This document shows, one piece after another, positions 55,209 through 60,115 of a stretch of 64,000 nt of DNA; positions within the stretch are counted from its first letter, which is position 1, and each line of letters begins with the position of its first letter. The position numbers were made by a program, and so were the translations under genes. Under the pieces are notes generated by a model. It made no database searches. It saw only the letters and a list, made by a program, of their open reading frames with translations, and was not told the DNA's origin. Origin of the DNA: Prevotellaceae bacterium (lineage in GTDB: Bacteria; Bacteroidota; Bacteroidia; Bacteroidales; UBA932); contig JAISBU010000058.1 in NCBI GenBank assembly GCA_031266015.1, positions 1 to 64,000 on the forward strand, written 5' to 3'.

Positions 55209-55508
55209 TTATACAAGCTGTGCAGGCTTTGCGGTTGTATCAGCCGGAGCTGGAGTTTCTTCTGCTCTTAGGTTCATTTGCTCAGGCTTTGCGGTTGTGT
55301 CAGCCGGAGCTGGAGTTTCTTCTGCTCTTAGGTTCATTTGCTCAGGCTTTGCAGTTGTGTCAGCCGGAGTTTCTTCAGCGTAAAGAAACATGCTAGACGT
55401 TGTAGTGTCGGCAGGGGTCGAAGTTGTTTCGGTTGTCTCTGCTGCGCGAGCGCTGCTCAGCGCTAATACAACTGCCACAGCTGCTACAGATAGTAATGCT
55501 TTTTTCAT
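55209..55508 (-). CDS. Small secreted protein with 20-residue tandem repeats
   Basis: A 99-residue protein: a signal peptide (MKKALLSVAAVAVVLALSS, cleavage after ARA), then a Thr/Ser-rich part and two and a half copies of a 20-residue unit of the type RAEETPAPADTTAKPEQMNL. It is very rich in Ala, Pro, Thr and Glu and lacks cysteine. Mature protein would be small and disordered. Function is unknown. The repeats are identical at the DNA level over most of 60 bp, so copy number may vary between strains. Confidence 0.65.
   Translation of the reverse strand: MKKALLSVAAVAVVLALSSARAAETTETTSTPADTTTSSMFLYAEETPADTTAKPEQMNLRAEETPAPADTTAKPEQMNLRAEETPAPADTTAKPAQLV
55223..55380 (-). repeat. 60-bp tandem repeat (2.6 copies)
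   Basis: Units starting with CAGGCTTTG at 55223, 55283 and 55343 differ at one or two positions; the third copy is truncated. The period is exactly 60 bases, so it stays in frame with the small secreted protein. Confidence 0.85.
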
Positions 55509-58288: not shown

Positions 58289-58296
58289 TACCTTTG
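58289..58296 (+). promoter_or_regulatory. -7 promoter box TACCTTTG of the radical SAM cluster
   Basis: A perfect TAnnTTTG match 29 bases after the kinase stop and 78 bases before the lipoprotein ATG, so the lipoprotein/radical SAM pair has its own promoter and a leader of about 75 bases. Confidence 0.6.
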
Positions 58297-58374
58297 ATAC
58301 GAGTAACAGCAGGCATAAAACCGTATTGATGTAATTATTTGATTTGCAGTTAATTAACCTCATGAAATTTTGCT

Positions 58375-58839
58375 ATGAAGCCACGAAAAATCTACATCAA
58401 GTGCCTGTTCTTTTTGTTAACGCTGCTGGGGTTTTCGGCCTGTATCCCTGAGGCTGAGATTGGTTTATGCGCGTATGGTACTCCCACTGCCTCGTATAAG
58501 GTAAAAGGTACAGCTGTTTCTGCGCAAACAAAATCTCCCCTCCCAAACATTCGGGTAGCTATGCGGGAGCCCGGATTTTATGTTGATACGATAGCGTACG
58601 CTGGCCATCTTTTCGATACGGCCTACACCGACAGTAACGGCTCATTCAACGTAGAAGCTATAGATTTTCCTTACGAAAAAGTTGTATTTTATTTGGATTT
58701 TACCGACCCGAGTGGCAGCTACTCCGCAAAACGGGATTCTGCTGTATTTGAAAATCCTCAGTTCAAGAATGGGGACGGTTGGCATGAAGGCGAGGCGGAG
58801 CAAGATGTGGGAGCGGTGGAGTTAGACCCGGCAGAGTAA
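58375..58839 (+). CDS. Radical SAM-associated lipoprotein (TIGR04134-like)
   Basis: A 154-residue lipoprotein with lipobox GFSAC (Cys23). The mature part starts LCAYGTPTASYKVKG and continues SPLPNIRVAMREPGF, DTAYTDSNGSFNVEA, FPYEKVVFYLDFTDPSG and the end GDGWHEGEAEQDVGAVELD. This is the pattern I recall for the lipoprotein family always paired with the radical SAM enzymes of TIGR04133, and it is likely the substrate. The carboxypeptidase-regulatory-like (beta-sandwich) fold is expected. The radical SAM gene starts two bases after its stop. Confidence 0.8.
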   Translation: MKPRKIYIKCLFFLLTLLGFSACIPEAEIGLCAYGTPTASYKVKGTAVSAQTKSPLPNIRVAMREPGFYVDTIAYAGHLFDTAYTDSNGSFNVEAIDFPYEKVVFYLDFTDPSGSYSAKRDSAVFENPQFKNGDGWHEGEAEQDVGAVELDPAE

Positions 58840-58841
58840 AA

Positions 58842-59942
58842 ATGAGCGTTGATACCCTTTCTTTTCGCAAGCGCTTGGGGCTAAATCTTTACCGGCGCTT
58901 CAAAAACAGCATGGCTGCGCAGCATCCGCTGCGCTACCTGTTTTGGGAATGTACGTTGCGCTGCAACCTTGCTTGCAGGCACTGCGGAAGCGATTGCCGG
59001 AAAAACATGCAGCACAAGGATATGCCTCTGTCCGATTTTCTCAAGGTGATAGACAACATTCGTCCACATGTAGACCCGCACCAAACTATGGTGGTGCTTA
59101 CGGGCGGCGAGCCGCTGCTGCGGACCGACCTTGAGCAGTGCGGCATGGAGCTTTACAGGCGAGAATTTCCGTGGGGATTCGTAACCAACGGCTTTGCCGT
59201 AACCCAAGAGCGCATTGCTCAGCTCATGAGCGCAGGTCTGCGGGCGGTAACCGTAAGCCTCGACGGGTTGGAGGATTCGCACAACCGGCTAAGGGGTAAT
59301 TCGCTCAGCTTTCGAAACGCATGCAACGCTATTCGTATTTTTATTGCTAGGGGTAAGGAGCTGGAGTTTGATGTGGTTACCTGCGCTTGCCAAAACAACT
59401 TTCACGAGCTGCCGGCCATAAAGGAGCTGCTGATAGGTATGGGGCTAAAGAGTTGGCGCATTTTTACTATTTTTCCCATTGGACGGGCAGCAAAGCATGA
59501 AGACTTGCAGCTGCAACCTGTGCAGCTGAAGCAGCTGTTCGATTTCATAAAGCAGACCCGTCGCGAGGGATGCATACGCGTTGACTACGGCTGCGAGGGA
59601 TTTCTTGGTGCGTACGAGGCGGAGGTGCGCGACAGCTTTTTCTTCTGCCGTGCGGGCGTTACCGTTGGCTCGGTGCTGGTTGACGGCTCTATTTCCGCCT
59701 GCCCCAACTTGCGCTCAAACTTTGTGCAGGGAAATATTTACAAAGATAGCTTTATGGACGTGTGGAATAGCCGCTATCAGGTTTTCCGCAACCGCTCATG
59801 GGCAAAAACAGGCGAGTGTGCGCGGTGCAAGCACTTTAAATTTTGTCAGGGTAACGGCATGCACCTGCGCAACGAAAACGGCGACCTGCTGCTCTGCCAT
59901 TTGAATAAGATTAAGCGGGGAGAGGAGCTGTTGAACGCATAA
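58842..59942 (+). CDS. Radical SAM/SPASM protein (TIGR04133-like)
   Basis: A 366-residue radical SAM enzyme. The cluster motif CX3CX2C is C41-N-L-A-C45-R-H-C48 in WECTLRCNLACRHCGSDC, followed by VVLTGGEPLLRTD and SLDGLEDSHNRLRG. A SPASM domain with auxiliary cysteines (FFCRAG, ISACPN, GECARCKHFKFCQGN, LLLCHL) lies at the C-terminus. It resembles peptide-modifying SPASM enzymes. Known family context pairs it with the preceding lipoprotein; the modification is unknown, perhaps of that lipoprotein. Spacing of 2 bases implies translational coupling. Confidence 0.85.
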   Translation: MSVDTLSFRKRLGLNLYRRFKNSMAAQHPLRYLFWECTLRCNLACRHCGSDCRKNMQHKDMPLSDFLKVIDNIRPHVDPHQTMVVLTGGEPLLRTDLEQCGMELYRREFPWGFVTNGFAVTQERIAQLMSAGLRAVTVSLDGLEDSHNRLRGNSLSFRNACNAIRIFIARGKELEFDVVTCACQNNFHELPAIKELLIGMGLKSWRIFTIFPIGRAAKHEDLQLQPVQLKQLFDFIKQTRREGCIRVDYGCEGFLGAYEAEVRDSFFFCRAGVTVGSVLVDGSISACPNLRSNFVQGNIYKDSFMDVWNSRYQVFRNRSWAKTGECARCKHFKFCQGNGMHLRNENGDLLLCHLNKIKRGEELLNA

Positions 59943-60023: not shown

Positions 60024-60115
60024 TTGTCATGCTGAGCGAAGCGAAGCATCTCATGTCGTGGTAACGTATCATCATGGTGCAAGCTTGAGATGCTTCGCTT
60101 CGCTCAGCATGACAA
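60024..60115. repeat. Perfect palindromic repeat, 30-bp arms (TGTCATGCTGAGC family)
   Basis: TTGTCATGCTGAGCGAAGCG and ten further bases (60024-60053) are exactly the reverse complement of 60086-60115, with a 32-base centre. It is the best preserved of a dispersed family. Such stems occur between genes in many Bacteroidota genomes. It falls between the radical SAM gene and the LTA-synthase-like gene. A remnant resembling the AACCACGGA repeat lies just after it (about 60160). Confidence 0.85.

Follow-up and report, generated by a model that had tools for sequence, protein, structure and literature searches.

What does a radical SAM/SPASM enzyme act on when its gene starts 2 nt after the stop codon of a lipoprotein gene on the same strand? 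This question is raised by one locus in the window, by which we mean the whole 64,000-nucleotide stretch of Prevotellaceae DNA that was analysed (Table 1). An earlier note, made from the sequence alone, had described the two neighbouring ORFs with C41, C45, C48 and several SPASM cysteines, and had named them as the TIGR04134/TIGR04133 pair, for which no reaction was reported. It had also proposed that the enzyme modifies the lipoprotein or something held by it, and had named profile searches and co-occurrence as ways to check these ideas.

The gene pair and its distribution

The description of the two ORFs, lipoprotein first, and of their cysteines held, and so did the proposed identity, since both proteins exceeded the curated cut-offs of their families in the NCBIfam profile search. 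The lipoprotein scored 89.6 bits against TIGR04134 (cut-off 39.8; model positions 6-144 of 150) and the enzyme scored 573.4 bits against TIGR04133 (cut-off 425; model positions 1-349 of 350). The enzyme also matched PF04055 and PF13186, which represent the radical SAM and SPASM domains, and no Pfam match was obtained for the lipoprotein at an E-value of 0.01. The claim that no reaction has been reported agrees with the family models, which carry none, and with the literature that was searched, in which TIGR04133, TIGR04134 and lipoprotein spliceases were not mentioned. The survey by Scott et al. 2022 (10.1016/j.chempr.2022.09.017), which reportedly lists 939 predicted splicease systems, was not covered and may include the family.

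Table 1 Features of the lipoprotein/radical SAM locus in the window.
Feature	Positions	Strand	Basis
Promoter-like TAnnTTTG box TACCTTTG, 79 nt upstream of the lipoprotein start	58289-58296	+	Sequence
TIGR04134 lipoprotein, 154 aa, predicted substrate protein	58375-58839	+	ORF; profile match
Signal peptide and lipobox GFSA-C23 (Cys23 codon 58441-58443)	58375-58443	+	Sequence
xYGxP motif A33-Y34-G35-T36-P37, predicted modification site	58471-58485	+	Motif statistics across partners
Transthyretin/CarboxypepD-like beta-sandwich, residues 39-154	58489-58836	+	AlphaFold model; structure matches
TIGR04133 radical SAM/SPASM enzyme, 366 aa, predicted modifying enzyme	58842-59942	+	ORF; profile match
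Radical SAM cluster motif C41-X3-C45-X2-C48 with invariant G49, S50 and fourth Cys52	58962-58997	+	53-enzyme alignment
SPASM region with invariant C269, C287, C326, C329, C335 and C352	59646-59897	+	53-enzyme alignment; SPASM domain match

The AlphaFold model of the lipoprotein (pLDDT 91.6) consisted of a signal helix (residues 3-22) and a transthyretin (TTR)/CarboxypepD-like beta-sandwich. It matched the N-terminal extension of SusC (9hfj; Z 9.9, 1.8 A over 77 residues) and a carboxypeptidase D domain (5aq0; Z 10.0, 2.2 A over 81 residues), and weak CarboxypepD_reg profile matches were found in 40 of 52 members. Cys23 is conserved in at least 90% of the aligned transthyretin-like partners. 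The xYGxP motif of the window protein is located between this cysteine and the folded domain, which starts at about residue 39, and the model predicts that the motif belongs to a linker outside the fold. The enzyme model (pLDDT 94.5) had its nearest solved folds among the SPASM peptide and protein modifiers ChlB, SuiB, CteB, anSME, SkfB and PqqE; the fold alone does not reveal which reaction is catalyzed. The plasmid-record row was left out of the alignments used for the structure models. Across 53 aligned enzymes, C41, C45, C48, C52, C251, C269, C287, C326, C329, C335 and C352 were invariant, and the canonical sixth SPASM cysteine was replaced by Gly339.

The earlier note had assigned the lipoprotein gene a TAnnTTTG promoter of its own. 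The box is present, and as promoter evidence it is weak, the motif being barely enriched in the window (78 occurrences vs 61 expected). The flanking phosphorelay kinase (a hybrid histidine kinase) and LTA-synthase-like enzyme (an LTA-synthase/sulfatase-type gene) are present as the note described; we rejected them as functional context, as other copies of the pair do not have them as conserved neighbours and they carry no information. No other gene recurred beside the pair among 924 neighbour genes of at least 120 aa at 124 loci. The gap between the enzyme and LTA-synthase-like genes contains, at 60031-60108, a perfect 22-nt inverted repeat (GCTGAGCGAAGCGAAGCATCTC and its complement) that resembles a mobile or REP-like element and occurs in just two copies in the window. 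On the minus strand, positions 55209-55508 encode an exported 99-aa protein built of AEETPAPADTTAKPEQMNLR repeats and without a family match.

The pair is widespread in Bacteroidales. Among 393 sampled genomes from this order, TIGR04134 was found above its cut-off in 58 genomes and TIGR04133 was matched at an E-value of 1e-60 in 97. Comparison of the two lists revealed that 55 of the 58 lipoprotein-bearing genomes also carry the enzyme, so that the co-occurrence check was favourable. Outside the order the pair is rare: among 395 genomes of the phylum, the enzyme was above its cut-off in three and the lipoprotein in three. The genome of the window carries a second pair on another contig (L002 1411-2859; G000:C64), where a 121-aa lipoprotein is followed without a gap by a TIGR04133 enzyme. 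This lipoprotein scores 26.5 bits, below the TIGR04134 cut-off, and reads FQAC-YGGPQDFGLD, the residue before Tyr-Gly being the lipobox cysteine. Gut occurrences of TIGR04133 were Parabacteroides distasonis and Phocaeicola massiliensis plasmids. The pair was also found on plasmid pTS1 of the spirochaete Treponema saccharophilum (L219), adjoining a gene annotated as an Mpi-family DNA invertase, suggesting horizontal transfer from Bacteroidota.

One motif in unrelated partner proteins

The surroundings of about 125 TIGR04133 enzyme genes were examined. The upstream ORF typically overlaps the enzyme start or sits a few nucleotides away, and Tyr-Gly was present in it at 107 of the 115 loci having one. 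Among upstream partners of at least 60 aa, 103 of 109 contained YG (shuffled sequences: mean 38.9, largest 51) and 92 of 109 contained YG.P (shuffled sequences: mean 2.0, largest 7). A small signal-bearing neighbour with YG.P accompanied 96 of 125 enzyme loci, compared with 6 of 336 other genes on these stretches of DNA. This last test used a looser signal criterion, and the preceding counts used no signal-peptide filter at all; a stricter filter missed real lipoproteins, among them that of the second pair in the genome of the window. Several of the 29 loci that failed the local test do have the motif or something close to it (CYGTL, EYGVR, AQYGSW) that missed the hydrophobicity filter or the exact pattern; others have truncated genes or a partner located downstream. 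Rows of two alignments (A2 and A4) were pre-selected for YG.P, and the invariance of Y34, G35 and P37 in them is therefore not independent evidence; the counts in upstream ORFs and the local test are.

The partners of the enzyme comprise more than one family, and a single motif is shared across unrelated scaffolds. When the signal peptide and the motif were masked, 79 partners clustered as transthyretin-like and 9 as coiled-coil proteins with RREGAAVYGSPE repeats. The remaining ones are low-complexity or very short lipoproteins, such as one with three motif copies (KTKYGVP...MMKYGVP...TKYGIP) or one with MGMVMYGTPTTMF. Some partners are secreted and non-lipidated, their signal peptide ending A-QYGAP. 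Thus the partners have little in common except a signal peptide and xYGxP, in up to three copies. The motif often comes directly after the signal peptide, Tyr immediately following the lipobox cysteine in 28 partners, and in others it is near the C-terminus. The residue after Gly varies freely and can itself be Gly (YGGP in the second pair). A glycine-hydrophobic signature of the signal peptide was found in 81% of the partners vs 27% of other lipoprotein-like ORFs, which shared ancestry may partly explain.

Secreted non-lipidated proteins that start with A-QYG after signal cleavage were seen at five loci (L208, L213, L216, L217 and L204). Those of L208, L213 and L204 carry at the C-terminus a domain similar to the sorting signals of type IX secretion (e.g. 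IEVYPNPTNTIIHI), and for those of L208, L213, L216 and L217 the enzyme is encoded elsewhere in the genome.

The motif is absent in most genomes that have the lipoprotein without the enzyme. There were four such genomes with an above-cut-off homologue, and YG was missing in three of them: the G696 homologue reads GNGSPYAKF, with Asn at the expected Tyr position, the G124 homologue reads TEYSEGG, and that of G758, a genome only 75% complete, reads DNKTPHADY. In the fourth genome (G618), YG was retained though no enzyme was detected. In enzyme-bearing genomes, homologues encoded elsewhere mostly retain YG; one has as many as three copies (G521:C149), and a single one is without it (G521:C146). 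The direction of this loss fits the reading of YG as a substrate site, although four genomes are few; when the control without the enzyme was widened to the family to which G696 belongs, it covered six genomes only. At another locus (L189; G636:C28) an in-frame insertion splits the enzyme match in two, and Tyr-Gly is lacking from the small lipoprotein next to it (ACYAPAPYDEEW). Enzyme and motif may be decaying together there.

Proposed modification of the motif and alternative explanations

We propose that the pair consists of a substrate protein and a dedicated enzyme that modifies xYGxP in the cytosol before export, probably through splicease chemistry. The evidence tilts toward this proposal without settling it, as the reaction was inferred in the absence of mass spectrometry. 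It is likely that the YG site is the target or the docking site of the enzyme. What the data establish is the pairing, the occurrence of the motif in unrelated scaffolds, its lack in most genomes without the enzyme and the position of the enzyme in the tree. That the motif is covalently changed is only inferred, and the same applies to tyramine excision as the nature of the change, which we favour by a modest margin, and to its purpose.

In the proposed mechanism, the lipoprotein precursor would be made in the cytosol with its signal peptide attached. The enzyme would recognise the xYGxP tag, possibly with a contribution from the signal peptide, and would modify Tyr-Gly in the cytosol ahead of Sec export. 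The exported protein would then be lipidated at Cys23, with the altered tag at the base of the transthyretin-like domain, and a reactive ketoamide could block a protease or trap a nucleophile on the surface of the cell. The earlier note had been concerned that the enzyme is cytosolic and the lipoprotein exported; this difficulty does not arise if modification of the precursor in the cytosol precedes export. Its claim that the enzyme modifies the lipoprotein or its cargo is supported, and action on the lipoprotein itself is now more specifically favoured because unrelated partner scaffolds share xYGxP, which matches the splicease site, although the modification is unproven without chemistry. 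Tandem copies of the motif, as expected for a modification site, also suggest that the modification takes place there. In the short-lipoprotein class, in which X is the lipobox cysteine, splicing would need to be compatible with lipidation. A bolder reading, which we would not quite back on the present evidence, is that TIGR04133 is a leader-free splicease that installs alpha-keto-beta-amino acids at xYGxP in exported Bacteroidota proteins of unrelated folds; as part of this same reading, the homologated residue of the short-lipoprotein class would be the lipidated cysteine and the signal peptide would double as the enzyme leader.

A different radical reaction at the same site, such as a cross-link of the Tyr side chain, epimerisation of an alpha-carbon or bond formation at glycine, remains possible. 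The motif evidence tells where the enzyme acts and not what it does, the structural neighbours with Z of 24-26 catalyze thioether formation, C-C cross-links or oxidation, and Pro at +3 and the invariant C52 and C251 are TIGR04133 features unseen in TIGR04103. However, the free variation after Gly (YGGP) argues against a cross-link to that residue, and the XYG match with known splicease substrates, together with the tree position of the enzyme, favours splicease chemistry. YGxP could also be a docking tag only, the enzyme modifying a different residue of the lipoprotein. A short conserved linker tag might just as well serve for recognition, and binding at a distance from the reaction site is common among RiPP enzymes, but the shortest partners amount to little more than a signal peptide, a linker and YGxP, leaving no other shared residue to modify, and tandem YG copies fit a reaction site better; we consider this explanation unlikely.

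Least probable of all, in our view, is that the lipoprotein is a carrier whose transthyretin-like domain holds a small molecule or cofactor made or altered by the enzyme. Transthyretin-like domains can bind ligands, and the AhbD/NirJ heme-pathway enzymes score close to TIGR04103 against the window enzyme. However, several partners are entirely without such a domain, some lacking any folded domain, and genes for transport or biosynthesis do not recur next to the pair. The carrier role is accordingly disfavoured.

We thus retain cytosolic modification of xYGxP, probably by splicease chemistry, as the preferred reading. Both families, and hence the pair itself, were already catalogued; new with respect to the literature searched are the site on the substrate, the motif that is independent of the scaffold and the link to spliceases, though the 2022 survey may list them. 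If the preferred reading is true, a Bacteroidales enzyme family that has been catalogued without explanation acquires a substrate, a site of action and a reaction that can be tested. Backbone editing is known from cyanobacterial peptides and is reported as widespread; its whole-protein form would then extend to lipoproteins that common anaerobes export, and would do without the customary RRE partner and leader. A short tag functional in unrelated scaffolds would further offer an obvious starting point for protein labelling that does not depend on a leader.

Comparison with spliceases and related systems

The PlpX splicease acts on Xaa-Tyr-Gly (PMC10533398). Tags derived from PlpX substrates include RPLYGLPI and, with an engineered Gly, AAGYGVVFP, and spliceotide products have been described as protease inhibitors (PMC11117315). 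We take TIGR04103 to be the PlpX family (IPR026482), and the gene architecture and motif agree with this. In Nostoc sp. C057, a TIGR04103 enzyme is encoded between a Nif11 precursor ending GSIALYGLPPELF and a 71-aa ORF. The precursor end, IALYGLPPELF, is close to the end of one TIGR04133 partner (EALYGVPVP) and to IIALYGVPSSKF of another. The window enzyme scored 136.8 bits against TIGR04103 (cut-off 725), showing that it is a relative and not a member, and TIGR04053 (138.8 bits) and AhbD (125.7 bits) were about as near.

In two trees, a split with 99% support placed TIGR04133, the Agathobacter and Chlorobium enzymes, TIGR04103 and TIGR03913 on one side and TIGR04053, MftC and PqqE on the other; in the second tree, an AhbD-like enzyme was also on the latter side. 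Branches inside the TIGR04133/TIGR04103/TIGR03913 group were weakly supported. Sampling of the other families was thin, with a single AhbD-like sequence that is below its family cut-off. In the alignment, G49 is common to TIGR04133 and TIGR04103/TIGR03913-type enzymes and is not found in TIGR04053, MftC and PqqE; A216 is likewise common to TIGR04133 and the splicease-like enzymes and not to the others. Some enzymes near TIGR04133 (Chlorobium, L006) are without an evident XYG peptide. On an Agathobacter rectalis plasmid (L222 3809-3998), an unannotated 35-aa ORF ending GPVMYGTGVRM is located directly upstream of a TIGR04133-related radical SAM gene and is possibly a splicease-type precursor.

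NCBIfam lists TIGR04133 and TIGR04134 as hypothetical equivalogs (rSAM_w_lipo and lipo_with_rSAM), with the same gene order and tight spacing as the window pair. These models give no reaction, and many TIGR04133 enzymes pair with short, coiled-coil, low-complexity or non-lipidated proteins outside TIGR04134. The mature domain of the window lipoprotein has the same fold as the SusC N-terminal extension and CarboxypepD-like transthyretin domains. However, the SusC extension is the front end of a TonB-dependent receptor, whereas the window lipoprotein is free-standing, with its YGxP linker outside the fold. MftC, PqqE, TIGR04053 and AhbD-like enzymes are SPASM radical SAM proteins with detectable sequence similarity to TIGR04133, but they are on the opposite side of the supported split and have different substrates. 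For MftC and PqqE, too, the residue acted on is a Tyr of a ribosomal peptide.

Enzymes of the TIGR03913 'GDL motif' maturases are related to TIGR04133, and several of the DUF1843 peptides that accompany them have PYG or AYG near the N-terminus. Unlike the TIGR04133 partners, these peptides are small, cytosolic-looking and without a signal peptide, and the enzyme is longer, with additional sequence at its C-terminus. At L221, L223 and L011, the DUF1843 peptides next to TIGR03913-type enzymes include PYG/AYG ones, and these may be XYG-modifying systems too.

PlpX systems use Nif11 or nitrile-hydratase-type leaders, whereas TIGR04133 partners are exported proteins with signal peptides; no leader-family match of either type was obtained for the window lipoprotein in NCBIfam. 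A PlpY-like RRE partner neither adjoins the window pair nor recurs among the 924 neighbour genes, a search limited to adjacent genes. TIGR04133 is about 30% identical to the Nostoc enzyme and has the invariant C52 and C251, which TIGR04103 lacks, and the Pro at +3 conserved in its partners is not required by PlpX, as seen in the GYGVVFP tag. TIGR04133 thus stays filed with TIGR04134, and its splicease activity is a prediction whose reaction is untested, resting on the substrate motif and the tree position. In these two respects it resembles a splicease: as in PlpX-type systems, a SPASM radical SAM enzyme is encoded beside an x-Tyr-Gly substrate, often with Pro two residues on, and TIGR04103 and TIGR04133 share one side of the enzyme tree and the CGS that follows the cluster motif.
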